DNA of 64,000 nucleotides from Candidatus Helarchaeota archaeon (lineage in GTDB: Archaea; Asgardarchaeota; Lokiarchaeia; Helarchaeales; HEL-GB-A). The position numbers were made by a program, and so were the translations under genes. Where the stretch lies: the NCBI GenBank assembly GCA_013375455.1, contig JABXJT010000012.1, positions 1 to 64,000 of the forward strand, read 5' to 3'. Of the stretch, positions 6,321-54,243 are shown one piece after another. The notes beneath the pieces were generated by a model, which was not told where the DNA came from, did no database searches, and was given only the letters and a program-made list of their open reading frames with translations. Numbering within the stretch: position 1 is the stretch's first letter; every line of letters starts with the position of its first letter.

Positions 6321-9122
6321 ATGGATACAGACGATGAAAGTTCAATAGACCAATCAAAAAATTTAACTGACTTCGATTTTAAGGAATTTCTCCTTGGATA
6401 CGAGCCTAAAACTTTCTTGATTGGAGCAGGTTGTTCTATTGATCCTCCGGCGAGCCTTGCAGCAGGACGGGAAATGATGGTTGCGTTGATAAAACATATC
6501 TGTCTCGAGGATGAAATTGAAAAAATCCTAAAACTTGATGATCTCAGATTTGAGGGGGTGGTGGAAATTGTACGTGATTTTATAGATCCGGAGCTTTCTT
6601 TGATTGATTATTACGAAGAATCCACCAATCCTAATTATCAGCATTTTTTTTTAGCTGATAGAATTAAGCAGGGACACTTTGTTCTTACAACCAACTTTGA
6701 TTTTCTTATAGAAGAGGCTCTTATCCAGTTACAGGTAGCAAATCAGGACATTCTACCAGTTATAACTAAAGAAGATTTCATAGAAAACAGTGATCCTGAG
6801 TCACTTTGCATGTTAGGGAAATGCCCAATATATAAAATCCATGGTTCAACAAAAAACTATATTACAGGAAAAAACACTCGTAACTCATTAATTACCACTC
6901 TTCAAGCTTTTGGGAGATATAAAGAGGGGATGAATGTATTTCAGGTGGAACCATATAAAAAGGAGCTCTTTGAAAATGTAAGTAAAAATAGATCCCTCAT
7001 TATAATGGGTTACTCGGGCAGTGATGATTTTGACATAATTCCAACCCTTAGGACTAAAACAATTCTTGCCAATTTAAAGAACATTTTTTGGGTGAGACAT
7101 ATTGAAAATGATGATAGCGAGGCAAAAGTATATGAAATTAAGCCCGCTTTGGATGACAGAGTATTTACTCTTAAGGGGGATAAAGTTTCATTCTTCTTAT
7201 ATAATGTTAAGTTCAGGCAACATTCATTAAATGTTTATAAAGTAGATGTTAATGTCTCACTTTTTGCGAGTAATTTAATAAACAAGCCTAAAAAGCCTAT
7301 TCAATCAACTGCGCGGTATAATCCCGCAGAATGGCTAAAAAATCATCTACCAACACCTACAAAATTAGATAAGGCTCTTATTTCAATCAATATTTATATG
7401 GGTTTTGGGAACTATCTTGATGCCCGTCGCTGTGCTGAAGGAATACTACCACATGCTGAAGAAACAAAAGACCAACAAAAGATATTTGAATTAAAAAATG
7501 GTTTAGGGTTAATTCATCGTAAATTGGGTAATTATGAGATAGCAATAGAATATTATAGTGAAGCCCTAAAAATTGCTAATGATCTTGATAATATTTTCGA
7601 TCAATTAACTATTAAAATAAACATTTCCAGCGTTCTCTATAGTCAAGGGTATCTTGATGTGGCGCTGAACGAAAATCAAGAGCTTCTCAAGTTCAGTAAG
7701 AGGCTATATGAGGAAATTCAGGACGAAACTTTACTAGAAATCATAGGACAAGCAGAGAATAATATTGGAAATATCTTAATGATTAGAGGGAATTATGATG
7801 ACGCTCTTGAGAGGTATCAAGAAGCACTTTCAGCTAAAGAACAGCTAGTAGATCTTGTAGGGAAAGCCACGTGTTTAAATCTCATAGGTGAGATTTACTT
7901 TCTACAGGATGAATATGACAAAGCCTTCGAAAAGGTAAAGGAGGCCTACCGAATTTCCTACGAATTAGGGTATCCTGAGGGAGAGGTGCGGAGTGGTTAT
8001 CATATTGGAAGGATTTTAAATATTCAAGATAAGTTAGAGGCGGCAAGGAGTTGGTTAGTGGGAACATTAAGAATTGCTAAGAGGATTATGAATGAAAATA
8101 TGATTGGAGAAATTATGTATCAGATTGGAAGTGTTAATGAGAAGCTTAGAAATTTTGGGGAAGCCATTGATTACTACAAAAACGCTCTAGAATCATTTGT
8201 TAAACAGAAGAATACTGGTGGGGTACGGGATGTAATTAAGAATCTCGGGTTTATGTTCGTGAATTTAGGATTCTATGATGAGATGAATAAATTATTTCAA
8301 TCTATACTTCCCACTTTTGAATCTTTGGAGGATGGAGAAGATAAATTTGTATTTTTTAATCTTATTGGTCAGCTTTACTACGAACAATACCAATATACAG
8401 AAGCTTTGGACTGGTATAAAAGAGCTTGCGCTATAGGTAATAAGCTCGGTAATAAATTAATGATGGCTGCATGTTTCGGCAATATTGGAACTATTTGTAA
8501 TAGTGTTGAACGTTATGATAAAGCACTTGAACAATTTCAAGAGGCATTAGAAATATTTAGAGAAATTAATAATAAGCCCGGATTGATGAAAGTTCAAAGT
8601 AATATGAGCAGTACACTGAGAAAACAAAATAAATTGGTAAAGGCATTAAAATTGGCAAAAGAAGCCTACAAATTATCCAAAGAAGTCAATGATCCTTCAA
8701 TTGAGTTTCCTCTCCTAAATACTATAGGCTTAATATATCTTGATCTCAAAGATTATTCAAATGCTTTGAAATACCTTAGAAAAGCCCGTAGGTTGGGTAA
8801 TTCAGTCAAAAATCCCTTTAAGATAGCGATATTGTTGAAAAATTTTGGCTTAGTTTTTACTAGAAAAGGCAATTATCGAAAAGCAGTACGCTGGTATGAA
8901 GAGGCGCTTCAAGTCCTTTCGGACAAACCCAACTCAATTGTGAAAGTTTATATTTTAATGGAATATGCCCAAGTTTTAGTTTATAGAAACCAAATAGATG
9001 AAGCAATAACTGCTTTGGAGGATGCGTTAGCTATATTGCAGCTAATTGGATGGGAGACATCCGAATTAGTAAGTAATATTAAACAAAGTATTGAAAATTT
9101 GAGAAAAGAATTAGAAAAATAG
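6321..9122 (+). CDS. SIR2-domain protein with C-terminal TPR array
   Basis: A 933-residue protein. Residues about 25-270 carry SIR2-like NAD-binding motifs: GAGCS (35-39), TTNFD (123-127), KIHGS with the catalytic-type His (172-176) and GYSGSDDFD (230-238). From about 345 to the end there are roughly twelve TPR units, for example NYEIAIEYYSEALKIA and RYDKALEQFQEALEIF. SIR2 domains fused to repeat or sensor regions are known prokaryotic defence NADases, where the C-terminal part senses infection. That role is inferred here. ATG 6321 follows a TATA-like element by about 25 nt, suggesting a leaderless mRNA. No partner gene follows directly; a candidate RNA lies upstream. Confidence 0.85.
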   Translation: MDTDDESSIDQSKNLTDFDFKEFLLGYEPKTFLIGAGCSIDPPASLAAGREMMVALIKHICLEDEIEKILKLDDLRFEGVVEIVRDFIDPELSLIDYYEESTNPNYQHFFLADRIKQGHFVLTTNFDFLIEEALIQLQVANQDILPVITKEDFIENSDPESLCMLGKCPIYKIHGSTKNYITGKNTRNSLITTLQAFGRYKEGMNVFQVEPYKKELFENVSKNRSLIIMGYSGSDDFDIIPTLRTKTILANLKNIFWVRHIENDDSEAKVYEIKPALDDRVFTLKGDKVSFFLYNVKFRQHSLNVYKVDVNVSLFASNLINKPKKPIQSTARYNPAEWLKNHLPTPTKLDKALISINIYMGFGNYLDARRCAEGILPHAEETKDQQKIFELKNGLGLIHRKLGNYEIAIEYYSEALKIANDLDNIFDQLTIKINISSVLYSQGYLDVALNENQELLKFSKRLYEEIQDETLLEIIGQAENNIGNILMIRGNYDDALERYQEALSAKEQLVDLVGKATCLNLIGEIYFLQDEYDKAFEKVKEAYRISYELGYPEGEVRSGYHIGRILNIQDKLEAARSWLVGTLRIAKRIMNENMIGEIMYQIGSVNEKLRNFGEAIDYYKNALESFVKQKNTGGVRDVIKNLGFMFVNLGFYDEMNKLFQSILPTFESLEDGEDKFVFFNLIGQLYYEQYQYTEALDWYKRACAIGNKLGNKLMMAACFGNIGTICNSVERYDKALEQFQEALEIFREINNKPGLMKVQSNMSSTLRKQNKLVKALKLAKEAYKLSKEVNDPSIEFPLLNTIGLIYLDLKDYSNALKYLRKARRLGNSVKNPFKIAILLKNFGLVFTRKGNYRKAVRWYEEALQVLSDKPNSIVKVYILMEYAQVLVYRNQIDEAITALEDALAILQLIGWETSELVSNIKQSIENLRKELEK

Positions 9123-16361: not shown

Positions 16362-17939
16362 TTAATAAAATTTCTTTACAAGATCAAGATCTATGTCCCT
16401 GATCCTTTCGATAAATTCCAGCCGATGATCCTGCATGACCCCTTCGAGTTCCCAAGTTGTTAAAATGCCGTCTCGCCGCTCATCATAATATTGGAGGCGT
16501 TCGGTGGTGAGAAACTCGAGCTCCGGGGAGAATTCCATCATTTCCTCCATAAATTCGCGAGCAAAGTCAAGATCGGGGTCTTCAGTATCCCAGACTATTT
16601 TTTTACACTCGACGATGAAGGCTTCTGGTTCGTGATAAAAACTTCTGCAAAGATAGGCGATCGCTGACGGGAGCGCCTTACAGATGCAAGTTTCGAAGTT
16701 ATTCAAGGCTAACTCCTCGCCATCGGATGTTAATGGTACACTGAGCACGCCTTTGACCAGGTTAAACATCTTTGCGTCCAGTTTTACCAATATGTAGCGA
16801 TACTGGGGAACTATCAACGTTAATGCGTAGGGAAGTTCGATTGGACGAGGTTCGTATTGGGTACAACTTCCCGAGGCTTCAGTCATCCTGAATTGTTTCT
16901 TGGAAAACCCGTACAGCCACAACCATCGAAGTTCGTCTAACAGGCAAAGCTCCCCATCCTCTGCAGCCACGGGGCCCAACACCCATTCCCCCTCCTCGTC
17001 ATAGTTATCCTCCATGGAGAGATCCTCATCAGTGTATTGCCATTTTTGGTGGGCTTCCGACTTCAGGTACGCCCTTAGGTAGGGGAGCGGCACCTGATGG
17101 GGGCTCCAATGCACGCACGTCGCACACATCTTGGGGAGCGAATGAAACCTATCTAACTCTGCATCCCACTCCAATTTGACATAAGAAGTAAAAAAGCGCA
17201 CGATCTGTGATATATTGTACACGGATTGTCCTGCGTTTGCCGCACACACATCTCTCAGCCTCTTTATTAAAGCCTCAAATTCTTCACGCAATGAGTGCTT
17301 CCGATAGATCCTGAAGAGTATCCGCACGACATAATCTCCCATTTGGATTCCTGAGACTGGGTCCTTTATTGGCAAGTCTTCGATGTTCTGTACTAAAAAA
17401 TCTGCCAAGGTTTGAAATACCATTCGCGGTCTTTTTTCACCCCGATGGCGGATTATTTCCGCAGCAACTTCTCGAATCCAATACGCGCCATCATCAAAAA
17501 ATGATAGGAGCTTAGTAAGAAGCGAATCATCCCAAAAATCCCTTTTCATTATTAGTTTGCCCAGTGTCGTTAAAGCCTTACCTCGAATATATTCCTCGTC
17601 ATTGTTGAACTGTTCAATCAAAAAATTAGCTATAGTTGCATCCGCATTTCCCTTGTAAGTTCCACCTGATTGCACGATAAAGATCAGGGCACACTGATCT
17701 ACAAAACCACTGTCTATCAGTGCATTGAAGACAATTCTTAAGGTTTTTATTCGATTGATCCTTTCTTTTTCCTTTTTCTTTTCCCTAATTTCCGCTTCTA
17801 TAATATATCTACTCCTTTTTATCTTCAAGGGATTCTTACAAACAGGGCACACATATTGATAATTGGCAGACTCAGCTTCCTTGTGTGAATAATCTTTATT
17901 ACAGGTATGGCAGAACAGGATAATCGTGTCTTTTTTCAT
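16362..17939 (-). CDS. Zinc-ribbon protein with HEAT-like repeats
   Basis: 525 residues. Residues 10-44 form a zinc ribbon (FCHTCNKDYSH ... YVCPVCKNPLKI). Then comes a charged helix and a helical repeat region with HEAT-like units (EEYIRGKALTTLGKLI, AYWIREVAAEIIRHRG). In the middle are further Cys (CATCVHW, C-L-L-D, SCTQYEP), possibly a second metal site. The C-terminus is acidic and helical. It is the last gene of the minus-strand Hsp70/TPR cluster, 23 bases after the small TPR gene, and is probably a scaffold or client-binding partner. Function unknown. Confidence 0.72.
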   Translation of the reverse strand: MKKDTIILFCHTCNKDYSHKEAESANYQYVCPVCKNPLKIKRSRYIIEAEIREKKKEKERINRIKTLRIVFNALIDSGFVDQCALIFIVQSGGTYKGNADATIANFLIEQFNNDEEYIRGKALTTLGKLIMKRDFWDDSLLTKLLSFFDDGAYWIREVAAEIIRHRGEKRPRMVFQTLADFLVQNIEDLPIKDPVSGIQMGDYVVRILFRIYRKHSLREEFEALIKRLRDVCAANAGQSVYNISQIVRFFTSYVKLEWDAELDRFHSLPKMCATCVHWSPHQVPLPYLRAYLKSEAHQKWQYTDEDLSMEDNYDEEGEWVLGPVAAEDGELCLLDELRWLWLYGFSKKQFRMTEASGSCTQYEPRPIELPYALTLIVPQYRYILVKLDAKMFNLVKGVLSVPLTSDGEELALNNFETCICKALPSAIAYLCRSFYHEPEAFIVECKKIVWDTEDPDLDFAREFMEEMMEFSPELEFLTTERLQYYDERRDGILTTWELEGVMQDHRLEFIERIRDIDLDLVKKFY

Positions 17940-17962
17940 TCCTAATCATTCCTGGTAAAAGT

Positions 17963-18487
17963 TTAGTATTCTTTATACTGTCGGAGTAATCTCGGCTTTT
18001 GATGTGGAATTTTCTCCCTAATATAGTCAAGATATTGTTCCACTAATTGCGTAGAAGCATATATGGAGGAATATAAAATGCTGAAATAATGATACGCCGT
18101 ATGAAAATGATCATATGCATCCGAATAATTCCCTAGATTATATAATATTTTTCCCATGTTGAAGAAGTAGGCTGCCTCGCGCTTTGGGTCGCAAAGCCGC
18201 ATGACAACGGAGAAAGATTCCTTTTGATGTTTCAGCGCGTTCTCCAGTTGGTTTTTTGCGTTTTTTTCGTCGTTGGTATTCAACAGATATATCCCTTGAT
18301 CATAATAGGATGTGGCAATATGCCTCATGCAAGTTGCTACCAGGTCTGGATCTTTTGATTTCTTGGCTAACTTAAGTGCTTTTTTATACGATTTTATGGC
18401 TCCAGAATAATTCGTCTGTTCCTGATTGGCGTCACCATCTTTGAGAAATGCATAGATTTTAAGTTTTAACTCGTCATCCCGGGTCAA
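17963..18487 (-). CDS. Small TPR protein
   Basis: 174 residues with about three TPR-like helix pairs: NYSGAIKSYKKALKLAKKSK, ATSYYDQGIYLL through ALKHQKESF, and AAYFFNMGKILYNLGNYSDA. The basic tail ends LLRQYKEY. It lies 46 bases after the tail-anchored Hsp70 stop, on the same strand. TPR proteins commonly contact Hsp70 tails, though this Hsp70 lacks the cytosolic EEVD tail, so a different contact would be needed. The co-chaperone role is inferred from position. Confidence 0.72.
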   Translation of the reverse strand: MTRDDELKLKIYAFLKDGDANQEQTNYSGAIKSYKKALKLAKKSKDPDLVATCMRHIATSYYDQGIYLLNTNDEKNAKNQLENALKHQKESFSVVMRLCDPKREAAYFFNMGKILYNLGNYSDAYDHFHTAYHYFSILYSSIYASTQLVEQYLDYIREKIPHQKPRLLRQYKEY

Positions 18488-18533
18488 CGCAACCCCTCTT
18501 ACTCATTTTTTATTTTTTTAAAGCATCTTCTCG

Positions 18534-20198
18534 TCAACGCCCAACGACTAAGACGATAATTACTATTACAACTATAAACAAACAACAACAAAAAACGCTC
18601 ATATAAGATACATCCGTAGGTTCAGAATCCACTGAAGATACAGGCGATGAAGTTCTAACAGGAGTGGACCCACTTCTAACAGAAGTCGCTCTCAATGGAA
18701 ATTGGATGCGTGAGGTTCTTCGACCAGAAACTATCGTGGCAGGAGTGATGGTGGCTTTATGTTCCCGTCCCGTGCCTAAATCTTTTGCGGATACGGTAAA
18801 AGTGCCGCTTGCGTTGATATCAAAAGTGACTTGAATCTTGGGAACACCTCGTGGTGCGGGTGGAATGCCCGTGAAAAGAAACCTGCCCAAGGTGATATTA
18901 TCGCTCGCTCGTGGTCTTTCACCTTGAAAGATGCGGATTTCCAAGGCAGGTTGATTGTCGGAAACCGTTGTAAAGATTTCAGTTTTTTTCGTCGGAATGG
19001 TGGTGTTGCGTTCGAATACTTTAGTAAATACATTACCGAGCGTTTCTACTCCGATAGAAAGGGGGTTCACGTCCAGTAAAAGTAGATCTTTTACTTCTCC
19101 AATTAGAAGACCCCCAAGAATCGCGGCACCAATCGCCACACACTCCATCGGATCGATCCCACGCTCTGCTTCTTTTCTAAAATTTTTTGCAAACCGAGCT
19201 CGAACGCTTGGCATCCGAGTAGGTCCACCTACCAGGATAATTTTATTCACGTCATTTGGCTCCCACTTGGCATCTCTGAGTGCTCTTCGAATTGGTTCAT
19301 CTAACCAGCCAAGAACTGGTTCAACTAACTCCTCTAATTTTGCCCGAGTTAACGCGAGAGTCATGTGTTTGGGACCGGTAGAATCCGCTGTCAAATGCGG
19401 CAAATTAATTTGAGTAGTAAGTGTTGTTGAAAGCGTAATTTTAGCTTCTTCCACAGCTAAGAAAATGCGCGCTATTGCCGTTAAATCACTTCTCACGTCA
19501 ATTCCATGCTCTTCCTGAATTTCAGCAACAATATACTTCACGATTTCTTTATCAATGTCTATTCCACCGAATTTCGTATCACCACAATAAGCTGCGACTT
19601 CAAAGACACCCTCCCCCATCTCCATCAGACAAACATTATAATGTCCCCCGCCCAAATCTAGCATTGCAACTTTTAGCTCACGTATTTCTTTGTTCCATCC
19701 ATACGCGAGTGCCGCAGCAGTTGGAGCAGAAACAATCTTTAATACCGGCAATCCTGCACGCGAAGCTGCTTCGATCATAAGCGATCGTTGCCAGTCATTA
19801 AAATATGCGGGAACTGTCAATACTGCCCCCAGTTTTTCATCACCTAGGAAAGTTACGGCATCATTTCGGATCTTTTTAAAAAATTTAACCAGCAAATCCT
19901 GAGGTCTATACCTTTTTCTACCGATTTTAATTTGATGATCCGTTCCAATTTTCCGTTTAAGCGCAAAAACGGTTCGTTCGGGATTTGTGATCGCTTGGCG
20001 AAGCGCAGGCTCCCCTACTAACCAGATACCATCAGCGGTAAGAGCTATCACTGACGGAAAACATTTACCCCCTACAATAGCGACTCCCTCCGTGCTAGGA
20101 ATGATTGTTGGGATCCCATCTCTCAGCACAGCTACCGCTGTATTGCACGTCCCGAAATCAATTCCAATGATTTTGGTAAATTTTTTTTGTTGGACCAA
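18534..20198 (-). CDS. Tail-anchored Hsp70-like protein lacking the lid domain
   Basis: 554 residues. The ATPase domain is complete: phosphate-1 loop GIDFGTCNT (12-20), VPAYFNDWQR, phosphate-2 loop LDLGGGHYN and adenosine motif VGGPTRMPSV. The linker (LLLLDVNPLSIGVETLG) and the beta-sandwich substrate domain follow (IFQGERPRASDN, GTFTVSAKDLGTG). The usual alpha-helical lid of over 100 residues is absent. Instead a short Ser/Thr/Pro-rich stretch leads to a C-terminal membrane helix (CCCLFIVVIVIIVLVVGR). This would hold the chaperone on the inner face of the membrane. It starts 12 bases after the AN1-TPR gene stop, and TPR genes flank it. It is a paralogue-type Hsp70, not the standard dnaK with grpE and dnaJ neighbours. 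Confidence 0.88.
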   Translation of the reverse strand: MVQQKKFTKIIGIDFGTCNTAVAVLRDGIPTIIPSTEGVAIVGGKCFPSVIALTADGIWLVGEPALRQAITNPERTVFALKRKIGTDHQIKIGRKRYRPQDLLVKFFKKIRNDAVTFLGDEKLGAVLTVPAYFNDWQRSLMIEAASRAGLPVLKIVSAPTAAALAYGWNKEIRELKVAMLDLGGGHYNVCLMEMGEGVFEVAAYCGDTKFGGIDIDKEIVKYIVAEIQEEHGIDVRSDLTAIARIFLAVEEAKITLSTTLTTQINLPHLTADSTGPKHMTLALTRAKLEELVEPVLGWLDEPIRRALRDAKWEPNDVNKIILVGGPTRMPSVRARFAKNFRKEAERGIDPMECVAIGAAILGGLLIGEVKDLLLLDVNPLSIGVETLGNVFTKVFERNTTIPTKKTEIFTTVSDNQPALEIRIFQGERPRASDNITLGRFLFTGIPPAPRGVPKIQVTFDINASGTFTVSAKDLGTGREHKATITPATIVSGRRTSRIQFPLRATSVRSGSTPVRTSSPVSSVDSEPTDVSYMSVFCCCLFIVVIVIIVLVVGR

Positions 20199-20209
20199 CT
20201 CAACCCCTC

Positions 20210-21412
20210 TTAATTGTTGTATTTAACATTCTTATTTGATTTTTTTCTCTGAGGTTTTGATTTTCGGGGTTTTTTAGCAATTTTTTCTTTTTCAGGTTTT
20301 AATGTCGAAGCTGGTAATTTCGTTTCATCTGAATCTTCGCGAACTAGTGCCTTTAGAGCCCATTGAGATCTCCCATAGCTCTTGAACCCTTTCCATCCTC
20401 GCATCGCCATCTCTTTATTGAATGTAGCTGATATATTTTGGGGATTGAGCTTAAGCACCTTATTGAAGCATTCGATCGCCTCTTTAAACCGTCCCAGCTC
20501 CCGAAAAAACACTCCTTTATTGTATAAAGCGTTCTCATTCTCCGGATCAATGGCGAGGGCTTTATCAAAACATGCAATAGACTCTAGATTTGATGATCCC
20601 AGGGCAATTCCTTTAAGGGTCCATCCTGCTATGTTATTAGGATCGAGTTCTAAGGCTTTCTCATAGCATTTTAGTGCCTCATCAGGGCGTAACAAGTCAT
20701 ATAAAATAAAACCTTTATCGACCCATGCATCTGCATTGGTCTTGTCCGTTTCTAATGCTTTCTTATATTGTTCAAGGGCGTCCTCCAACTTCCCCTGCTG
20801 ATGGAGAAGTTCTGCTTTCCTTTTCCACGTCATCGCATCTTGTTGCTCTTTCGACATTATCGATAATCGCTGGATACCTTCTTGCGTTTCCACATCATAG
20901 GGATTAATTTCAAGGGATCGCCTGTAACATTTAAGTGCTTCAGGAAAACGTCCTAACTCTTCTAATAATTGCGCACGAATCAACCATGCTTTTGCATTAT
21001 TAGGTCTAATCTTTAGGGCCTTCTCCAGGCATCTCAAAGCCTCTTCATAATCCCCCTTTTCATCCGCTTCTCTTCCTTTTATTATCCAAGTATCATATGC
21101 AATCAAATTCTTGAATTTTTGAGGAACACCTGGTAATACAGCCTTTGACTTTTTAGGAGGTTTCGGTAATACAGGTTTCGGTGATACTTCAAAACATGAT
21201 TTTTCTCGTATTATTTTGTACGGTTTAACTGAGGGCGTGCTTTTTTGAACTTCCTTATCAAGATGAACGGCCTTTCGGATATTTTTCAATTTTTTACACT
21301 GATGCACCTCAGGAAGGTGATGATCGGCACAAAAGAGTTTTTGGCAGGATTTACAGCGAAATAGCAAGGATAAAGGTGCCCCGCAAAACGAGCATTTATT
21401 ATACTCACCCAT
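20210..21412 (-). CDS. AN1-type zinc finger protein with TPR array
   Basis: 400 residues. The N-terminus has an AN1 zinc-finger pattern: CSFCG, CKSCQKLFC, then HHLPEVHQC (residues 7-39). A basic linker follows, then about six canonical TPRs from about 105 to 345 (EEALRCLEKALKIRPNNAKA, PDEALKCYEKALELDPNNIA, FKEAIECFNKVLKLNPQNIS). The tail is lysine-rich. AN1 fingers are widespread in archaea and are linked with stress and ubiquitin-type pathways in eukaryotes. The gene precedes the tail-anchored Hsp70 by 11 bases. A co-chaperone role is inferred. Confidence 0.82.
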   Translation of the reverse strand: MGEYNKCSFCGAPLSLLFRCKSCQKLFCADHHLPEVHQCKKLKNIRKAVHLDKEVQKSTPSVKPYKIIREKSCFEVSPKPVLPKPPKKSKAVLPGVPQKFKNLIAYDTWIIKGREADEKGDYEEALRCLEKALKIRPNNAKAWLIRAQLLEELGRFPEALKCYRRSLEINPYDVETQEGIQRLSIMSKEQQDAMTWKRKAELLHQQGKLEDALEQYKKALETDKTNADAWVDKGFILYDLLRPDEALKCYEKALELDPNNIAGWTLKGIALGSSNLESIACFDKALAIDPENENALYNKGVFFRELGRFKEAIECFNKVLKLNPQNISATFNKEMAMRGWKGFKSYGRSQWALKALVREDSDETKLPASTLKPEKEKIAKKPRKSKPQRKKSNKNVKYNN

Positions 21413-21540
21413 TTTTCTCCCTTTAGCAAATCTTTATTTATCCTAATTGCTGTATAATCGCAATTAATAAATGAATAATTAGCTCTAGATCCCGTGATCT
21501 ATTTTGAAGAGCATCACCTTATTTAAATTATTCATTCTAT

Positions 21541-23127
21541 TCACTTTTTAATCACTTTTTTAAAGCATTCATCCGCCTTTACATACTCCCCGATCTCCAC
21601 GTAGAGTTCCCCCAGCAGTTTCCGCGCTTGGCTGTTGGTCGGGTCTTTTTCAAGAGCGTTCTCGCAGCATTCAATCGCTTCTTGGAAATTTCCTGAAGTT
21701 CTAAATTCATTTGCCTGATCCAACAAGTCCCCTTTTCCGCGTTTTTTCTTTTTGCGTTTTTTAATGGATGGTTTTTTTCGTTGTATTTTTGAAGCTTTTT
21801 TACCTCCAGTCTCGGTTTCCTTTTTTTCGCTGTAATTTTCACACACTCCAAAGCTCGTAGCTTCCCCCTGCCATTCGCAGTTAATAGCGCAAGTTACACA
21901 GGTTGCTAACGGATGTGAAAAAATGATCTCTTCAATCGTTTTTTTAGGCGGAGAACTGATCTCCTGCACGGGTTTTCCCTTATCTGATTTTTCCAAATGA
22001 TCTTCGATAGTCTTAATAGATGAGTAATTAAATCCTATAGCTGGTTTATTACCTAGTTTAGTCCAAGCGTCTAAAGCTTCTTGGTAATACTTCAACGCTT
22101 CCTTTAAATTATTTTGAAAATGATATGATATTGCAATGATTTCCAATTCACACGCTATCATGTATGGGTCATTGAGCTTTCTATAGACACTTAATCCATC
22201 TAATGAATATTTTATTGCTGAGTTTAATGCATATATCGCACCTTGTTCCTTTCTATCTATGGTATTCCACCTTTCTCTATATAACAATCCGAGGTTATGG
22301 AGAGTTGTTGCTTTAGCAACTAAATAATAAGTATCTCCCCCGGCCTTTAGCACCTCTCTGATTATTTCTAAGTTTTCTTTAAGAATTTGGATTGTTTCCG
22401 AAGATGAATATTTATTAATTTCTCGTTGAATTGCTGCCTTAGTATTCAATGCATGCACTAAGGTGTTCTTCTCTGCAAGTCCACGAGAAATTTTCAATGC
22501 ATCTTCGCAAACATCACGCGCATGCCAAAAATTCCCAGTATTATAACGTGCTAAAGCTAAATTACAAAGTGCCATCGCTTTTTGCTTGTCATCTCCTTTT
22601 TTTATTGCATCCTCCAGCGCATCTCTAAAAAACCTAATTTTCCAGGATAAATCCTTCATTTTAAAAGCCCTCGCGATTTTTGTCTCAACCATAAAATATG
22701 AATAGAACACGTTAGTCGCCACTCCAGGAAAGGAGGGCGTATTTACTCTCAATCCTTTTTCGAGGAAGCTATCAAAAGGTTTTAAAAACATCTTTGATAG
22801 CATTTGCGCTGCGCTGTCTTTCGCCGCACGAACCTCTTCTTCGGGGATTTCCCCTTCGACCATTTCATCGCTCTCTTTATCCAATCGCGAGGTTGGATGG
22901 TTTTTATGATTTTTTATGCATTCTGAACAAAAGATACCCCCCCTACTGCAAAAACACATATATATATGAGGCTCGTCAGCAAATTGTTTTCCACATTCTT
23001 GACAAGAACCCTTCCAGAGCGATTCTCGCATTTTTTCTGCCCCCTCCTCATCGAAAATAACCGTATCGCCTGATTTACTCTTTTTTATTTTTCTTTTTCC
23101 GTACTTCTTTATAATCGTCACATCCAA
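21541..23127 (-). CDS. Zinc-finger TPR protein
   Basis: 528 residues. A basic N-terminus is followed by a zinc-finger-like region: CQECGKQF, MCFCSRGGIFCSEC and HKNH (residues about 42-72), resembling a B-box or AN1-type arrangement. Residues about 140-390 are TPR-like (AMALCNLALARYNTGNFWHA, LKEALKYYQEALDAWTKLGN). Another Cys cluster (CVTCAINCEW, C-ENY) sits near 415-430, then a highly basic segment and a final TPR pair (FQEAIECCENALEKDPTNSQ). It lies 40 bases downstream of the propeller protein gene and 128 bases before the AN1-TPR gene. Confidence 0.75.
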   Translation of the reverse strand: MDVTIIKKYGKRKIKKSKSGDTVIFDEEGAEKMRESLWKGSCQECGKQFADEPHIYMCFCSRGGIFCSECIKNHKNHPTSRLDKESDEMVEGEIPEEEVRAAKDSAAQMLSKMFLKPFDSFLEKGLRVNTPSFPGVATNVFYSYFMVETKIARAFKMKDLSWKIRFFRDALEDAIKKGDDKQKAMALCNLALARYNTGNFWHARDVCEDALKISRGLAEKNTLVHALNTKAAIQREINKYSSSETIQILKENLEIIREVLKAGGDTYYLVAKATTLHNLGLLYRERWNTIDRKEQGAIYALNSAIKYSLDGLSVYRKLNDPYMIACELEIIAISYHFQNNLKEALKYYQEALDAWTKLGNKPAIGFNYSSIKTIEDHLEKSDKGKPVQEISSPPKKTIEEIIFSHPLATCVTCAINCEWQGEATSFGVCENYSEKKETETGGKKASKIQRKKPSIKKRKKKKRGKGDLLDQANEFRTSGNFQEAIECCENALEKDPTNSQARKLLGELYVEIGEYVKADECFKKVIKK

Positions 23128-23167
23128 TTGAAATTCCTTGGTGGTTGGAGTAATATTCGCTTTTGAA

Positions 23168-25735
23168 TTATCTATTACTTTCTAATTTTCTCGTTCTTAA
23201 TTTCTCTAAATCTTTAATTCGCCTTAGATTGGCCGTATAGAGAATTGCAATAGGTAAGAATGCCCCGATCCAGACAAGCGCACCAAGTGCAAGCCATCCT
23301 CCGCCCCACTGAAAAAATAGATACCAAATAAACAAGGTCATACAGAATAGACAACTATAAATCTGATTACGTGCTTTCCGAGATTTTATTTCTGCAGATA
23401 ATTGTGCGACTGTCATGGAGCTATCTTGGTCGAGGTGATCTACGATTGAAGTCTGACTTTCTACCTGAACGTGTCTTTCAGCTTCTCTACGTTCTTCAGC
23501 TAAAATGCCTAAACTCTTCCCTTCTAATTCACAACCACATCCCTTACAAAAGACTAAATCATTTTTATTTTCTAAACCACAAGAAGGGCAGTTAATGAAC
23601 ACAGGGGCTGGAGGTATGATGTCAATAGTTTTATCTAGAAATTTTATTTGAATTTTTGACCTATCTTGAGGCGTCTGTTTAAGTCTGGTTCCTTTTGATC
23701 GTCGGAAATACTTGGTGTATACAAATAAGGAACTTCCTATAATAGCAATTATTCCGATTATTATCAAAACTAAGACTAAGGGGTCAATGAAAAGATCGGA
23801 AGGAATTGCAACATTGACATATACGCAATTAGAAATATTACTTGTACCTGTGGCATTACCCGCCACAACTGCATAATAGTACCCTCCATTTTCAGTGATA
23901 TGATCTTGATAAAAATTCGTTGTTATTTGTGCAATTGGGGTCATATTCCCCACGGATGTAATGAACTCCTTGCTCCTATAAATGTAATAAAACGTAGCGG
24001 TGGGTATTACGTTCCAATTAAGTATTATAATTCCATCTTCATCGTTACTAGGTGAAATTGGATTTAAATCAGGAGGTTCTGGTGGAATAGCAACCCAGCC
24101 CCATACACAATTAGAAATTGAACTGTTTCCTGAAGCATTACTAGCTACAATTACGTAATAATAAAATCCATTTGTTGTAATTATGTCCGAATACTCATTT
24201 AAACTAGTTACTCCGATTGGAGACATGCCAAAAACGGATGAAATTGGTGAGTTTGCTCGATAAACAAAATATTCTATGGCACCCGTGATATTATTCCAAT
24301 TTAATGTTAAACATCCATTTCTACTCGGATTAGGTGGAACAATTTCTATTGTAGGTTTATTAGGAACCCAAATAGATTTCTTATAGAAAATATCTATATC
24401 GGTACCTGAATTATTGTAATCGGAATTATCTTGCCAGAAAAGATGGATATGGTTGTTAGCGTCTAACTTAATTTTTGGGTATTTGGATTCTCCTATACAT
24501 TCCTCAGCAACTGAAGTTATATCTGTCCATTGATTCGTTGAAACATTTCTATACTTGTAATATAAATTTTGATGCCAGGGATCAGAGGCTTCGTGTTCAT
24601 GCCAAACTACATGAACATTTTCAAATTCATCTACCGCGATTGACGCAGTTTCGGACGTGTCTTGACTTTCTGAAGTAACTACTTCAGTAGTACTCCAAGT
24701 ATGTGATGCAATATCTAATTTTTTATAAAAGATATCCCGATCTGAGCCTGCACCATAATAGTCTGAGATATCTGCCCAAACAAAATGTAAATAATCAGAC
24801 GGGCTGATTATCATTCTTGGGTAGTACGAGTGGTCCATGCTTTCTGTTGATACAACTTCAATGGATGTCCAATTTCCAGTTGATACATTCAAAGATCGAT
24901 AGAAAATATCCCGATCATTTCCAGACCCACCATCGGATGTCCATTCTTCCCACGAAACATGGATATTATTTGATGCATCGATTACTAATGATGAACATAT
25001 CGAATCATATTGTGAAACTTGTGAAACTACTTCATAGGGTGTCCAAGTACCCGAAATATTATCCCTACATGCGTAAAAAATGTCATAATATAACCAAGAT
25101 GGCTCTGATTTATCCATCCAAACAGCATGTATATTCCCCATTCCATCTATAGCAATCTGCGCACCCCCAGATTTTTTTGTACAATTAATTGAAACCACTT
25201 CAGTGGGATTCCAGCTGGATGTACTAGCATTTCTACATCGATAAAAAATGTCAGGATCTGCTCCTGAGCCATTAATATTTGTGGCATCAATCCATAATAC
25301 ATGTAGATTTCCAGATTCATCTATTGCAATCGATGCCCCGCCAAGCACTTGAGTACTCTCACTAGAAACCCATTCAATTGAAGTCCATAAACCTGAACTT
25401 GCGTTCCAACACCTATAAAATACATCTAAATCTGACCCCTCGCCAATTAAATCGGTACGATCAACCCAAACTAGATGAATATTTCCAGAATCATCAAATA
25501 CAAATGATAGGCCACCCGAAAAATTTACGCTTTCTTTAGTAAATACCTCAAGTAAGCCCCAACCTCTTGCTGCGATGTTTAACATTACTGGTGGATTACT
25601 TACAAGCGATTCTTTATTTCGATCCCCGAAATTCAATTTGTTATCTAAAGGAAATGCTAGAATGAAATGTGAAAAAACGAGTAAATTGAGAAAAATTATT
25701 AAACCAAATTTATTAGACCTCTTTCTTTCAACCAC
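23168..25735 (-). CDS. Membrane protein with extracellular beta-propeller and two FN3 domains
   Basis: 855 residues, GTG start. An N-terminal signal/anchor (FGLIIFLNLLVFSHFILAF) is followed by at least six repeats of about 55-60 residues with the pattern IAIDESGNLHVLWID, then DIFYRC and a W. These read as sialidase/BNR-like propeller blades. Two FN3-type domains follow (LTLNWNNITGAIEYFVYR and IILNWNVIPTATFYYIYR). Then comes a membrane helix (LVLVLIIIGIIAIIGSSLFV), a cytoplasmic zinc ribbon (CPSCGLENKN ... CKGCGCEL) and two more membrane helices. The FN3 units closely resemble those in the protein at 34323-35702. It heads the Hsp70/TPR cluster; a surface sensor linked to cytosolic partners is an inference. 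Confidence 0.8.
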   Translation of the reverse strand: MVERKRSNKFGLIIFLNLLVFSHFILAFPLDNKLNFGDRNKESLVSNPPVMLNIAARGWGLLEVFTKESVNFSGGLSFVFDDSGNIHLVWVDRTDLIGEGSDLDVFYRCWNASSGLWTSIEWVSSESTQVLGGASIAIDESGNLHVLWIDATNINGSGADPDIFYRCRNASTSSWNPTEVVSINCTKKSGGAQIAIDGMGNIHAVWMDKSEPSWLYYDIFYACRDNISGTWTPYEVVSQVSQYDSICSSLVIDASNNIHVSWEEWTSDGGSGNDRDIFYRSLNVSTGNWTSIEVVSTESMDHSYYPRMIISPSDYLHFVWADISDYYGAGSDRDIFYKKLDIASHTWSTTEVVTSESQDTSETASIAVDEFENVHVVWHEHEASDPWHQNLYYKYRNVSTNQWTDITSVAEECIGESKYPKIKLDANNHIHLFWQDNSDYNNSGTDIDIFYKKSIWVPNKPTIEIVPPNPSRNGCLTLNWNNITGAIEYFVYRANSPISSVFGMSPIGVTSLNEYSDIITTNGFYYYVIVASNASGNSSISNCVWGWVAIPPEPPDLNPISPSNDEDGIIILNWNVIPTATFYYIYRSKEFITSVGNMTPIAQITTNFYQDHITENGGYYYAVVAGNATGTSNISNCVYVNVAIPSDLFIDPLVLVLIIIGIIAIIGSSLFVYTKYFRRSKGTRLKQTPQDRSKIQIKFLDKTIDIIPPAPVFINCPSCGLENKNDLVFCKGCGCELEGKSLGILAEERREAERHVQVESQTSIVDHLDQDSSMTVAQLSAEIKSRKARNQIYSCLFCMTLFIWYLFFQWGGGWLALGALVWIGAFLPIAILYTANLRRIKDLEKLRTRKLESNR

Positions 25736-25817: not shown

Positions 25818-26087
25818 TTAAATATCAAACAGGTCCTTGACCGCCCGCACGAACGCATCCTCCAGTCGTAAAATGTACGTGCCATCGCTCATTCGTTCCA
25901 AGAACCCGATGTCCTCGAAGAAATCCAAGTGCGGTTGGGCATTAGGGATCTCATCCTTGAGCATCAAGATCTCAAAGGGGAGGAGTTGACGCCTCTCAGC
26001 GAAGATTCCTAAGATCTGGAACCGCTCTTCGGGGCAGAAAATGTCGGCAAGTTCGATGCCCTTCCATCTCCAGGGTTGCACGGTCAC
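25818..26087 (-). CDS. Small winged-helix protein
   Basis: 89 residues, GTG start. ERFQILGIFAERRQLLPFEI, a recognition-like helix NAQPHLDFFEDIGFLERMSD and a wing TYILRL fit a winged helix. The end (AVKDLFDI) and the HLxFFxxxGxLE core echo the protein at 9272-9616. It lies just downstream of the minus-strand membrane operon and may be its last gene. Target unknown. Confidence 0.62.
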   Translation of the reverse strand: MTVQPWRWKGIELADIFCPEERFQILGIFAERRQLLPFEILMLKDEIPNAQPHLDFFEDIGFLERMSDGTYILRLEDAFVRAVKDLFDI

Positions 26088-26134
26088 CTCTCCTTGGTCT
26101 CTCTTGTTTTGAAATAAATAATTGTTTCACCAGA

Positions 26135-26971
26135 TCAGGTAACGTATTGCAGTTCTTTTTTCCGATTAGCTGAAGTATTCTCGAAGGAATTCACGACCTC
26201 GCGAATTTCTTGAAGCAGACCGGGATTTTTCTCAAGTTCCTTTTTAACCCGAATCACTCGCGGCAAGTCGACTCTCTTTTGTTCTTCAGTACCTTTAGTC
26301 TTTATGTAGCGAATCATTGCATCAATGTCAGCGTTAAACTGCTTGATTAAAATTACGTAGATTGGGGCATCCTCTTTATCCTGCTGGATGGCTTCAATCC
26401 CTTTGATGTATTCTCGTTCGATACCCCAAAAGAACTCGCTAGGTTCTACAAATTCATAGATGCTTTCGGAAGTTTCAATCAACGTATTCCCGCAGTCCGG
26501 GCAGTAGGTATAGGCGGGAACATGTACCTTATCGCACTCATCGCACAATTTCACGTTCCCATCGACTTTATTTCCACAATACGGGCAAAAATTTTGGATG
26601 ATGATGGGTCTATTGCATGCCGAGCACTCCACGAGATGTCGTCTCTCTAGGGTTTTTTGAGTGTCATAGAGGTTCTCTTTTATCCGATTGAGCAGTCCAA
26701 TTGTACCCATATCTATGCTAGCGTAAGAACTGGTCTTGAATACCTCGAATTCATTTTTGAGGTCTTCCAGAATGCGGTCGTAGGCTTCATCGCGAGCATG
26801 GAGGCTTATTGTATTCGCGGAACTGATCCCATCAATGTAATTATTTCCCTTATACCTCCGTCCTACTATCAATACCTCTATATCAAATTTTTTACACAAG
26901 GTCTTAAAAATTCGGAGATTCTTTCGGTGAACCTTCTTATTATATCCTCCAAACAAGCTTATTTCTGTCAT
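26135..26971 (-). CDS. Double zinc-ribbon protein
   Basis: About 278 residues from ATG 26971 (MTEISLFGGYNKKVHRK); an upstream ATG at 26986 is possible. The first 120 residues are an alpha/beta region. In the middle are zinc-ribbon knuckles CSACNRP, FCPYCGNK, LCDECDK and YCPDCGNT (about residues 120-165), enough for two metal sites. The C-terminus is helical and charged. It is not a membrane protein, but it is encoded between the winged-helix gene and the membrane protein genes of the minus arm. Function unknown. Confidence 0.68.
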   Translation of the reverse strand: MTEISLFGGYNKKVHRKNLRIFKTLCKKFDIEVLIVGRRYKGNNYIDGISSANTISLHARDEAYDRILEDLKNEFEVFKTSSYASIDMGTIGLLNRIKENLYDTQKTLERRHLVECSACNRPIIIQNFCPYCGNKVDGNVKLCDECDKVHVPAYTYCPDCGNTLIETSESIYEFVEPSEFFWGIEREYIKGIEAIQQDKEDAPIYVILIKQFNADIDAMIRYIKTKGTEEQKRVDLPRVIRVKKELEKNPGLLQEIREVVNSFENTSANRKKELQYVT

Positions 26972-27002
26972 TTTTCTCACCATCAAATAAATTTTTTGTT
27001 AT

Positions 27003-27374
27003 TCATTCCCGAAGCGACTTGATGTGCTGCTCGATGACCTCCAAGGTCCGCATTATCTCAGGCGATTCTCGTCCTTGGTTAGATACCTTCTCCCGGCGCG
27101 CCAGGAGATTTCTCGGGATGAATTGCCTGAACAGCAACACGCCAAGATACGTCGAAAATAGGATGTAAATCCAAACGGAATTGAAGGGGGTCATTATCAA
27201 ATTATCCAAGGTGAACTGAGAAGTGAGGATGATGATGTTCGGGAGTATGGCGATGAAGTATAGAATGATACAGGTAAATTTTTGAAAATGATGCCCTGGA
27301 AGGATCCAAATCGCGCACATTATTGCTAAAAGAAAAACCAGAGCTACTATTATGGTATGATAATCAATTCCCAC
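27003..27374 (-). CDS. Small membrane protein, three to four helices
   Basis: I place the start at GTG 27374 (MGIDYHTIIVALVFLLAIMC) because GGGGGAG lies six bases before it; an upstream GTG at 27398 is also in frame. The gene overlaps the end of the thioredoxin-like gene by 11 bases, indicating translational coupling. Hydrophobic segments: TIIVALVFLLAIMCAIWIL, FTCIILYFIAILPNIIIL and VWIYILFSTYLGVLLF. The basic C-terminal tail is probably cytoplasmic. No family recognised. Confidence 0.65.
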   Translation of the reverse strand: MGIDYHTIIVALVFLLAIMCAIWILPGHHFQKFTCIILYFIAILPNIIILTSQFTLDNLIMTPFNSVWIYILFSTYLGVLLFRQFIPRNLLARREKVSNQGRESPEIMRTLEVIEQHIKSLRE

Positions 27375-28635
27375 TTTTTTCTCCCCCGTTTGAGTCACTC
27401 TGGGTCTGATAAGTCCCCAAGATCCCCAATAAGTTTAACAGCTCGCGTTTGACCGTCCGGTGGGGATCCCCTTCACCCTGTTCCTTCACTGGAGTAATCC
27501 AATAGAGCTTGTCTTGGTATTTCAAGGTAGGGGTCCGTCTGATGCCATACACACCCCGACACCAACCTGCATCAATCGTGAATTGTACATCGTAGGTCTT
27601 TATTTGGAGTTCTAGGTCGTGAGCTAGCTGCTGGATATATTCCCAGAGGGAACTCGCGTAGAGCATCTGACAAACTACGCATTTGCGATTGGAAATTAAT
27701 TCTAATACGCCTTTAGGCTTGTCTTCTCCAACCTGTAAGAATGAGGGGGTCGCGCGACCTCCTTGCCTAGCTACTTCAAAGGAAGTACTTGCAATGTAGT
27801 GTTGGGTGAAATCGACGAATACTTTCAACTCGGCAAAAACTTGGAATAAAAAATTGAGGAGCATGTCTGGTTTCATTAAAACCGTCTTAGAAGAGACATC
27901 GAAATATTCCAGGAGGTCCGTGGTGATGGCTAAGGTCCGAGCAATGCTATTCGTTATGTAGTGTTTGACGGAAGGAGTAATGCTCTCGGTGATCAGATAC
28001 ACGGTGAGATAGGAGAATAACGTTTTCGTTATGGTCAGGAAGAGCAAGCTAAGAAATTCGACGAGCTCTTGAGCTTCAAATTTCTCGTTTCCCTCTAGCT
28101 CCATCTGTTCTAACTTCTTTGCCTCTTCAACTTTCTTACTCACTACCTCTACCAAGCTCTCGCGGTATTTATCCAAGAAATCTTTAATGTATTTGATCTC
28201 TGGGTATTCCTCGCTTTCAATGACCTCGAAAATGCCAACTATCTTCAGGAAGACGACTTGGAGTCGAGTCAGGTAGTCGAATAATTTGGCCTCTTCCAAT
28301 TTGCTTTCACCCGAAGCGAGGAGGACCCGTGAAAGATCCCGTGCGTCTTTTTGAAATTGATTAACGAAATACATGAAAAACGTGTTGAACGAATCCTTTA
28401 ACTGCTGAGTGTTGAAATCAGCCACGATACTTGATACCGCACCCCGTAACTTCTCAATATATTGCAGGAGTTTTTGCGTGTAAGCGGGATCTATGTTTAC
28501 TTCATCTTGAAATATCGGTTCGGTGCTAATCCAGGATCTCGTAACGAGGAACTCTGAGAGTCCAATACCCAGGGCTTCCAAATAATCAATCGTGCTGACT
28601 TTTGGGGGATCCTGATCCGAAATTTCTGAAGTCAT
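27364..28635 (-). CDS. Helical protein with C-terminal thioredoxin-like domain
   Basis: About 423 residues from ATG 28635 (MTSEISDQDPPKVST), 14 bases after the previous stop; longer in-frame starts lie inside the upstream gene. Residues 1-320 are helical, with hydrophobic stretches (LVEFLSLLFLTITKTLFSYL). The last 100 residues look like a thioredoxin fold: a CxxC (RKCVVCQMLY), a helix, the strand LQIKTYDVQF and a cis-proline-type loop GIRRTPTLKY. No signal peptide is seen. It is encoded beside membrane genes and opposite an operon rich in paired-cysteine proteins. A redox role is inferred. Confidence 0.65.
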   Translation of the reverse strand: MTSEISDQDPPKVSTIDYLEALGIGLSEFLVTRSWISTEPIFQDEVNIDPAYTQKLLQYIEKLRGAVSSIVADFNTQQLKDSFNTFFMYFVNQFQKDARDLSRVLLASGESKLEEAKLFDYLTRLQVVFLKIVGIFEVIESEEYPEIKYIKDFLDKYRESLVEVVSKKVEEAKKLEQMELEGNEKFEAQELVEFLSLLFLTITKTLFSYLTVYLITESITPSVKHYITNSIARTLAITTDLLEYFDVSSKTVLMKPDMLLNFLFQVFAELKVFVDFTQHYIASTSFEVARQGGRATPSFLQVGEDKPKGVLELISNRKCVVCQMLYASSLWEYIQQLAHDLELQIKTYDVQFTIDAGWCRGVYGIRRTPTLKYQDKLYWITPVKEQGEGDPHRTVKRELLNLLGILGTYQTQSDSNGGEKSGN

Positions 28636-28648
28636 ATCACTCAACTCT

Positions 28649-29455
28649 TTAGTTTGTTTCACTAATGGTCTTTTGAACGCTTGCCTTCGCTTTTTTGAAA
28701 GTGGTCTGCTCAGCCCCAGCATCTTGAGGGGATGCAGGCGTGGATGTCTTGGGAGGAGTGATGTGTAATGCATCTCCTATTTGTCCTAATTTTTTCATGT
28801 ATTTCTGCCTAGTTCTTCGAATGTATTGCTTGACATAATCGGGTGCATTGATAATCTCTTGGTAGAGCTCACCAATCAATTCACCAACTTTCTCTTTAAG
28901 TTCATTAAATCGGCGCAAGTGGTCTCTGGTATGTCTAATTACTTCCTGTTGATATTGTTCCTCAACCTCCTTCAGCATCTCCTCGAGATATTCAATTTGG
29001 GTGTATAAGGGATTGATTTTATCAGTAAGCATCTTTAACCCCCTGGTCAAGCCCAGCTTCAGGATTTCGATGTCAAACAAGGGTTCGATTTTCTGATGCT
29101 TAAAATCACTCTTTTTGAAATTACAAAGGATCATCAGTTCTTTAGGCCCCTCTTCAGGAGCATAATTCCTGGAAATTGCCTCGAAACTATACTGAGTCCC
29201 AAGATTAATCATCCATTCTTGGACGGTTTCCTCCTCTGCTAGAACTCGAATTTTGAATTCTTTATTTTCCGTCCCCAAAGAGAGAAACTTTCCAATTTGG
29301 CGCATTTGACCATCCAGATCCCGCAGGACAACATACCGAGATTCATCGTGTGTCAGGTCGTAGTATTTCGAGTAATAATTCCATGCCCTAATTATTACAA
29401 TGACTAATGCAATGAATTGGCCAATGATCAGCCCCATGCTAATCGGATCTACCAT
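28649..29455 (-). CDS. Membrane-anchored coiled-coil protein
   Basis: 268 residues. An N-terminal membrane helix (GLIIGQFIALVIVIIRAW) is followed by a cytoplasmic alpha/beta domain (YVVLRDLDGQMRQIGKFLSL). A long coiled coil covers about 140-215 (IEYLEEMLKEVEEQYQQEVI, RRFNELKEKVGELIGELYQE). The tail is Pro/Ser/Thr-rich. It is the first gene of the minus-strand arm and so sits directly under the promoter region with the 17-bp repeats. Function unknown. Confidence 0.68.
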   Translation of the reverse strand: MVDPISMGLIIGQFIALVIVIIRAWNYYSKYYDLTHDESRYVVLRDLDGQMRQIGKFLSLGTENKEFKIRVLAEEETVQEWMINLGTQYSFEAISRNYAPEEGPKELMILCNFKKSDFKHQKIEPLFDIEILKLGLTRGLKMLTDKINPLYTQIEYLEEMLKEVEEQYQQEVIRHTRDHLRRFNELKEKVGELIGELYQEIINAPDYVKQYIRRTRQKYMKKLGQIGDALHITPPKTSTPASPQDAGAEQTTFKKAKASVQKTISETN

Positions 29456-33558: not shown

Positions 33559-34326
33559 TTGGGTAAGAGAATGAATGGCAGCATGAAAGGTCCTGCCATT
33601 GGGGCGGGATTTCTTGGCATTGGCTTTATTATTCTTTACTCACATTTACTCATTGAAGAAATTAGCTATCTTTACGTCACCTATACATTTGCATTTTTCT
33701 TCATTCTAGGGGGGTTGACTGTCTTTGTACGGCTGACGGCCTTAACGTACCGGGTGGCAGAGTCACGCGGGGGGTTTAGAACCTTGAATGAGGAAGTTCA
33801 TTTCTATGCCTTGGAGTTCACGAAAGTCACGGCCGTTACCTTCTTTGCATTTTACTATCCTTGGGAGGCGTTTTTAATGTGGGTCATTTTAGATTGCATG
33901 GATGGGTTCACGCTCTCATATGGGAAGCGGAGCCTTCCCTTGAGGCATAAAATCGATAAATTTACCGATTTCCTCTGTCAAATTCCCCTATTTATTGTTG
34001 CCCTTCAGCTCTGGGCCGATCTCCCGGTATTGAGCATTTTCTTCACGGCATTTTTTATCTTGCTCGCGATAAAGACGGCACTGTTTGTCATTACGGGGAA
34101 CCGTGACGCGTTACTGTACCTTCCAGGTGCGTTTGCCATCCTCTATTTAGTAGTCACTACCCTTTACACCTTCTTTCCATCTCAATTTTCAGTCATCTTT
34201 GGGAATGTTCATAATACAATTGCCTGTATCGCGGTGGTCCTGGTCATTTGCACTGCCTATGAGGTCATTTACAATGGGGTGCTAATTCGGCTTCGTTACC
34301 GGGTACAGAAAGGAGGGCGAGAATGA
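33559..34326 (+). CDS. Divergent CDP-alcohol phosphotransferase-like membrane protein
   Basis: 255 residues, TTG 33559 or ATG 33571 start, with about six membrane helices. The cytosolic loop DCMDGFTLSYGK ... HKIDKFTD keeps all four Asp of the family motif DxxDGxxAR-x8-GxxxDxxxD at exactly the right spacing (0, 3, 21, 25). The A-R pair is replaced by L-S and the second Gly by Arg. The Asp residues bind two metal ions in active enzymes that join a CDP-linked lipid to an alcohol. Activity is uncertain. The stop overlaps the next ATG. Confidence 0.58.
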   Translation: MGKRMNGSMKGPAIGAGFLGIGFIILYSHLLIEEISYLYVTYTFAFFFILGGLTVFVRLTALTYRVAESRGGFRTLNEEVHFYALEFTKVTAVTFFAFYYPWEAFLMWVILDCMDGFTLSYGKRSLPLRHKIDKFTDFLCQIPLFIVALQLWADLPVLSIFFTAFFILLAIKTALFVITGNRDALLYLPGAFAILYLVVTTLYTFFPSQFSVIFGNVHNTIACIAVVLVICTAYEVIYNGVLIRLRYRVQKGGRE

Positions 34327-54179: not shown

Positions 54180-54243
54180 TGCCTGCTATTGTTTAGTCCT
54201 CAAAACACTTAAAACTCAGCCCAAGCATTGCATAGTATAGAAA

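Follow-up and report, generated by a model that had tools for sequence, protein, structure and literature searches.

Hsp70s are among the most conserved proteins. Ssz1 has no lid, binds ATP but does not hydrolyse it and acts as a chaperone with transient contacts, and DnaK deprived of its lid has on and off rates that are 10–100 times faster (PMC7083937; PMC8476630; here and below, the literature is cited from excerpts of the papers). Replacement of T199 by alanine in DnaK greatly reduces the ATPase but affects neither allostery nor the kinetics of the changes that ATP induces, with T11 and K70 acting as γ-phosphate sensors (PMC12406271). Here we describe an Hsp70 variant of Candidatus Helarchaeota archaeon, encoded on a stretch of 64,000 nucleotides (GenBank assembly GCA_013375455.1, contig JABXJT010000012.1, positions 1 to 64,000; hereafter the window), in which a predicted tail anchor takes the place of the lid and residues required for hydrolysis are replaced. 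We conclude with moderate confidence that it is a membrane-tethered Hsp70 that binds ATP, probably without hydrolysing it, and works in a manner similar to Ssz1, to which no kinship is claimed.

Architecture of the Hsp70 variant

The gene and the two parts of it that matter most for this study are as follows.

18534–20198, minus strand: Hsp70 variant of 554 amino acids, with nucleotide-binding domain (NBD), interdomain linker, β-subdomain of the substrate-binding domain (SBDβ), no lid and a tail anchor
19635–19781, minus strand: interdomain, J-domain-facing and catalytic stretch (residues 140–188), with K155I, R167K, N170S, E171A, T199H and D201N
18537–18605, minus strand: tail-anchor helix and the two residues that follow it (residues 532–554), assigned by hydropathy against 119 relatives

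The anatomy of the protein is well supported. The NBD (residues ~8–366) is joined by the interdomain linker VKDLLLLD to SBDβ (~378–488), which is followed by a flexible linker (489–531), a transmembrane (TM) helix (~532–552) and the two-residue tail GR. The protein belongs to the Hsp70 superfamily, since Pfam HSP70 (PF00012) matches with 518.5 bits (cut-off 20.6; best stretch residues 90–490). Its alignment to the DnaK structure spans residues 8–494, and a Foldseek search with the predicted model ranks DnaK structures first, including lid-deleted ones such as 5obu. It falls short of the DnaK equivalog profiles (593.9 versus 822.55 bits for TIGR02350 and 588.8 versus 648 bits for NF001413), and it also departs from that class in its missing lid and in its residues (K70 is kept; E171A, T199H and D201N are changed).

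In canonical relatives, SBDβ is followed by the helical lid and then by an acidic tail. When five canonical lids were used as tblastn queries, the gene's end gave no match in any frame, and the lowest E-value anywhere in the window was 0.079, at position 7113. A frameshift or truncation that conceals a lid was rejected on the basis of this result. Between SBDβ and the anchor lies instead a linker of 43 residues, 60% of which are Ser, Thr, Pro or Arg.

For comparison we used 236 relatives, the distinct matches listed by two protein searches (with the whole Hsp70 and with residues 134–212); they were picked by similarity and include fragments. Each search covered 5.8 billion proteins, of which 8000 were scored and the best 120 listed, so a more distant relative could lie beyond. 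Residues 535–553 of the Hsp70 have a mean Kyte–Doolittle hydropathy of 3.56, and the 21-residue window from residue 532 sums to −5.3 on the biological scale. The top 19-mer in 119 relatives reaches at most 1.5 and their lowest sum is +7.6; residues 1–520 of the protein itself give 1.8 and +6.2. Because these values lie so far outside the range of both the relatives and the rest of the protein, the C-terminal helix is no accidental run of hydrophobic residues. In all 236 relatives no 19-mer exceeds 2.0, and the helix is the only TM-like stretch of the Hsp70 with a mean of at least 1.9. With a single C-terminal TM segment, a tail of two residues and no N-terminal signal, the protein is predicted to be tail-anchored. 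Three consecutive cysteines (residues 537–539) are situated near the cytosolic edge of the anchor, where lipidation, metal or redox contacts are possible.

In an AlphaFold2 model built from a 50-row alignment, the NBD is confident, SBDβ is less so (blocks of 57–82) and the 43-residue linker has a predicted local distance difference test (pLDDT) score below 50.

Catalytic and J-domain-facing residues, and descent

Substitutions are numbered according to E. coli DnaK; the alignment is gapless through residues 140–188. E171A, T199H and D201N correspond to residues 158, 186 and 188 of the Hsp70, and all 236 relatives carry Glu, Thr and Asp at these positions. We count D201 among the catalytic residues. 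Also changed are R167K (Arg in 236 of 236 relatives), N170S (Asn in 234 of 236) and K155I (Lys in 235 of 236). K70 and E171 take part in catalysis (PMC4595643), and T199 has been characterized as a universally conserved residue that is indispensable for hydrolysis (PMC13012618). According to simulations, the contact between T199 and the γ-phosphate and the D35–R167 salt bridge are important for J-domain stimulation; in J-domain proteins, the partner of R167 is the aspartate of the HPD motif (PMC13012618).

A second group of residues is unchanged: D8, T11, N13, K70 (one relative, P0126, has no residue here), R71, D194, G196–198, E267, K270, P143, Y145, F146, D148, R151, T173 and D393. Five of these (P143, Y145, F146, D148 and R151) have been termed invariant in the allosteric core (PMC4595643). 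As T199, E171 and D201 are all changed, and by comparison with T199A DnaK, the most likely state is one in which hydrolysis is lost and ATP binding retained. ATP binding is backed, though not proven, by the residues that are kept, and the hydrolysis-deficient biochemistry is probable as judged from the substitutions.

In SBDβ, position 429 is Val (Ala in 224 of the 225 relatives with a residue there) and position 436 is Leu (Val in 221 of 222); we take both to be peptide-pocket positions. Position 481, Asp in DnaK and Asn in 214 of 224 relatives, is Ser.

The preliminary description of this locus, made from the sequence alone, had proposed an Hsp70 that lacks the lid and ends in a membrane helix, and the tblastn and hydropathy results bear out both features. 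The catalytic substitutions, the main feature of the protein, had escaped it. An ATP-cycling reading of the chaperone system that it suggested is unsupported, because E171, T199 and D201 are all replaced, and its picture of a substrate-binding face held at the membrane is overstated, because the poorly predicted 43-residue linker separates SBDβ from the anchor.

The nearest lidded DnaKs among the matches listed are P0004 (68% identical over 89% of the query) and P0002 (69% identical over 86%). Those of the nearest matches that carry organism names are mostly from Candidatus Helarchaeota or other Promethearchaeota, and P0011 is from Candidatus Deferrimicrobium. A quick tree of 50 rows places the Hsp70 within a set of 11 rows with a Shimodaira–Hasegawa-like approximate likelihood ratio test (SH-aLRT) value of 99; its ten companions include P0004, P0006 and P0007 of Helarchaeota and P0013 of Promethearchaeota. 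The end branch of the Hsp70 has a length of 0.88 against a median of 0.076 (about twelvefold), its composition is flagged as odd and, as the tool warns, its position is unsure because the row is so long.

Of 377 sites at which at least 12 of the 13 nearest DnaKs agree, 102 are changed in the Hsp70. The 554 codons contain no stop, although by chance 102 missense changes would be accompanied by 4.7 (P = 0.009), and there is no internal indel relative to P0004 over residues 1–488. Changes are rarer at sites near-invariant in the 236 relatives (28 of 133) than at variable sites (126 of 349; p = 0.0015). Within the NBD, the near-invariant changes number 5 of 22 up to residue 124, 9 of 27 in 125–170, 4 of 15 in 171–212 and 2 of 25 in 213–366; there are none at the five linker sites, and SBDβ has 8 of 39. 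As part of our best explanation as a whole, and with the same moderate confidence, we regard the gene as having arisen by duplication of the DnaK gene of an Asgard archaeon, probably a Helarchaeal one, and as being maintained.

No second protein of this kind is found among the matches listed by either query. The open-licence PMC literature (titles and abstract openings) yielded no tail- or membrane-anchored Hsp70 or DnaK gene of this sort, and a search there for Helarchaeota together with Hsp70 gave no paper.

Gene neighbourhood

The other genes on the same strand around the Hsp70 gene are as follows.

16362–17939, minus strand: orphan of 525 amino acids with an N-terminal zinc ribbon (CxxC pairs) and possible HEAT-like helical repeats (weak repeat matches)
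17963–18487, minus strand: small TPR protein of 174 amino acids (Pfam TPR match), its gene having the AAGAGGGGTTG leader in common with the Hsp70 gene
20210–21412, minus strand: AN1 zinc finger and TPR array, 400 amino acids (zf-AN1 35.6 bits, cut-off 27.9; TPR_1 173.5 bits)
21541–23127, minus strand: Cys/His-rich zinc finger (from residue 42) and TPR protein, 528 amino acids
23168–25735, minus strand: surface protein of 855 amino acids with signal anchor, propeller-like repeats, Fn3-like part, TM segment, zinc ribbon and further TM segment (all domain matches weak)
25818–29455, minus strand: five more co-directional genes upstream (89, 283, 131, 469 and 268 amino acids) with small gaps or overlaps

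The six open reading frames at 16362–25735 and the gaps between them (23, 46, 11, 128 and 40 bases) are as the preliminary description had given them, but the run does not end there: it reaches 29455 and comprises eleven genes, which possibly form one transcription unit. A loose TATA pattern has four matches, one at −53 of the first gene of the run (TTTATAAA), one at −87 of the propeller gene and two at −91 and −35 of the small TPR gene. Since it precedes only three of the eleven starts, the pattern settles nothing on promoters. The AAGAGGGGTTG leader precedes both the Hsp70 start and the small TPR start, and this common leader and the gene spacing suggest that the Hsp70 is linked to its neighbours. 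The adjacency of TPR genes is in itself a weak argument, because a further TPR protein is encoded in the window at 6321–9122. The setting differs from a dnaK operon, as had been proposed, and the gene content supports this. When genome contigs were scanned for the same context elsewhere, the single match was a bacterial DnaK (Duncaniella).

TPR clamps bind the EEVD tail. The Hsp70 ends in IIVLVVGR, and EEVD is likewise absent from all 204 relatives of at least 600 amino acids. We therefore rejected an EEVD–TPR partnership, and the idea that the TPR neighbours are co-chaperones of the Hsp70 is weak. No J-domain partner was seen in the window; the sole HPD motif in frames of at least 60 amino acids lies antisense inside 16362–17939 and has no J-domain context.

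The identification of the small TPR protein and of two zinc-finger TPR proteins in the preliminary description is upheld. The protein at 20210–21412 has six TPR_1 stretches; the finger of 21541–23127, for which no Pfam match is shown, looks B-box-like by eye, an assignment we assume. Two other descriptions hold in part. For the orphan at 16362–17939, the zinc ribbon stands (CxxC pairs at 10 and 31), whereas its HEAT-like nature is plausible but not established, with weak signals (HEAT_2, E = 0.2; designed alphaRep, E = 2.3e-6) and a fold model too poor for a fold search (mean pLDDT 41.7). For the surface protein at 23168–25735, proposed as a signal-anchored propeller/FN3 protein, the zinc ribbon is again present (CPSC/CKGC at 716/730). 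The propeller match is marginal (SBBP 20.6 bits, cut-off 20.5, with no individual stretch significant), and a search against the PDB gave one Fn3-like match (E = 0.096). Because it has three TM-like segments (9–27, 642–660 and 813–831), the protein has more than one anchor. Two Fn3-like stretches resembling by eye those of this protein occur in a membrane protein of 459 amino acids at 34323–35702 (plus strand).

In a protein search the orphan, the one neighbour used as a query, matched only itself, so a wide distribution of the complete six-gene set is not seen. Two of the five upstream genes have recognizable motifs: 26135–26986 (minus strand, 283 amino acids) encodes a double zinc ribbon (CSAC, CPYC, CDEC and CPDC), and 27364–28773 (minus strand, 469 amino acids) has CVVC and TPT motifs near the C-terminus. 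A thioredoxin-like end of the latter, suggested by eye, was dropped after Pfam and PDB searches gave no support.

Elsewhere in the window, 51831–56294 (plus strand) encodes a RAMP-family Csm3-like protein, a weakly Cmr3/Csf3-like protein, a protein of 238 amino acids without assignment and a DinG-type helicase that matches the CRISPR type IV-A DinG model with 309 bits as well as DEAD_2, HBB and Helicase_C_2. Together these genes resemble type IV-like CRISPR effectors; the guanine–cytosine (GC) fraction is 0.50 at 52–54 kb compared with 0.37–0.38 on either side. The protein of 659 amino acids at 38997–40976 (plus strand) is TnpB/Cas12f-like by weak matches (Cas12f, E = 1.8e-5; Cas12f1-like TNB, E = 0.04) and has a long N-terminal part; the GC fraction around its gene (38–40 kb) is 0.505. 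The TPR protein at 6321–9122 (plus strand, 933 amino acids) is a fusion of a SIR2-like domain with a long TPR array, a layout that resembles some anti-phage proteins. An Arf-family GTPase is also encoded in the window.

Proposed mechanism and comparison with known systems

In the sequence, a flexible linker and tail anchor stand where the lid would be and the hydrolysis residues are replaced, whereas the nucleotide pocket, the γ-phosphate sensors and the interdomain linker are kept. In the mechanism that we propose, the Hsp70 would be situated at the cell membrane, on its inner side, where it would bind ATP with very slow or no hydrolysis, and ordinary J-domain proteins would no longer drive it. 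SBDβ would then serve as a peptide-binding platform of low affinity and fast exchange. Such a docking site could pass clients or partners to soluble DnaK, or hold the neighbouring TPR and zinc-finger proteins; we liken this putative role to that of Ssz1 acting for Ssb at the ribosome.

Several observations weigh against this proposal. Docking of SBDβ involves K155, R167 and position 481 (PMC4595643); since all three are changed, docking is in doubt, and an ATP-locked, docked state is uncertain. The pocket changes A429V and V436L may reduce peptide binding. The substitutions do not cluster at the active site, their densest one-dimensional cluster being residues 102–123 (permutation p = 0.037). 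The charges that flank the helix (acidic before it, one Arg after it) disfavour an N-in topology under the positive-inside rule. AlphaFold2 models the tail without a helix (pLDDT ~24–34), a result that is uninformative because no relative covers the tail. Finally, the Hsp70 is known from one sequence on one contig, and replacement of K155 or R167 in otherwise intact E. coli DnaK raised the basal ATPase (PMC4595643).

This last result also suits a membrane quality-control chaperone that cycles ATP, tolerates its altered residues and is driven by a J-protein encoded elsewhere in the genome, as does the largely conserved state of SBDβ, linker and nucleotide pocket. We consider such a chaperone very unlikely, given the combination of E171A, T199H and D201N at positions that are Glu, Thr and Asp in every relative, and an HPD motif in the window that lacks J-domain context. 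Changed catalytic residues together with a kept nucleotide pocket would also fit a non-chaperone scaffold, that is, a membrane-tethered, actin-fold ATP-binding protein that organizes the TPR and zinc-finger neighbours into a signalling hub beneath the propeller receptor. The altered pocket (A429V, V436L), the intergenic distances of 11 and 46 bases and the leader common with the small TPR gene agree with this idea, but SBDβ is retained with 31 of 39 near-invariant sites unchanged, EEVD is missing and a physical interaction is only putative, which makes such a scaffold unlikely.

The long branch (about twelve times the median), the odd composition, the 28 changed near-invariant sites and the lack of a second copy among the matches listed would be explained if the gene were a decaying duplicate that lost its lid through fusion to a hydrophobic tail and is drifting towards a pseudogene. 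This is quite unlikely, as the frame is open, without any of the 4.7 stops expected (P = 0.009) and without an internal indel, near-invariant sites are spared relative to variable ones, and the NBD is modelled at high confidence. An assembly chimera of a DnaK fragment and an unrelated membrane tail would account for the presence of the Hsp70 on one contig only. It is extremely improbable: that contig comprises 146,807 bases, the changes extend throughout the DnaK part and are not confined to the tail, the neighbouring orphan is present on two contigs and the frame is unbroken across the join.

The tethered, ATP-binding Hsp70 with impaired hydrolysis thus remains our preferred explanation. A maintained gene with ATP sensors and an anchor but neither hydrolysis residues nor lid would amount to a natural split of ATP binding from hydrolysis, and suggests that a cycling folding machine was turned into a fixed, membrane-bound binding platform. 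It raises the question whether an ATP-state Hsp70 does useful work without hydrolysis, within the limit of a single known example. More tentatively, the archaeon may have independently evolved an Ssz1-like Hsp70, lidless and binding ATP without hydrolysing it, whose own tail anchor fixes it in the membrane. It would form a permanent ATP-state platform beneath a propeller surface receptor and recruit either DnaK clients or signalling partners of the TPR and zinc-finger type. If this is true, the Ssz1 solution arose convergently in a non-eukaryote, within the archaea most closely related to eukaryotes.

Among known proteins, the lidded DnaKs of Helarchaeota and their kin (e.g., P0004; also P0002) are the nearest in the tree and have the same NBD, linker and SBDβ. 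They differ in having a lid and an acidic tail, in keeping E171, T199, D201 and R167 and in the absence of a TM-like segment. T199A and lid-deleted DnaK are laboratory variants, whereas a T199 change and the absence of the lid are combined here in one natural protein; compared with T199A DnaK, it has His at T199, E171A and D201N in addition, and membrane tethering. In E. coli, HscC and the tail-anchored J-proteins DjlB and DjlC have been suggested to form an Hsp70 system at the plasma membrane (PMC8215388). There, however, the anchor is on the J-protein, whereas here it is on the Hsp70 itself, whose J-domain contact is altered. Ssz1 of the fungal ribosome-associated complex likewise lacks the SBDα lid and keeps SBDβ, and ATP binding without hydrolysis, reported for Ssz1, is predicted here. 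Unlike the archaeal protein, which has its own TM helix and a canonical linker, Ssz1 is eukaryotic, is tethered at the ribosome via Zuo1 and possesses a detached linker that is unique to it. The Hsp70 groups with archaeal DnaKs (SH-aLRT 99; Ssz1 is not in the tree), so an origin from the Ssz1 lineage is not indicated. We regard Ssz1 as the closest functional analogue of the Hsp70 variant and make no claim of membership.

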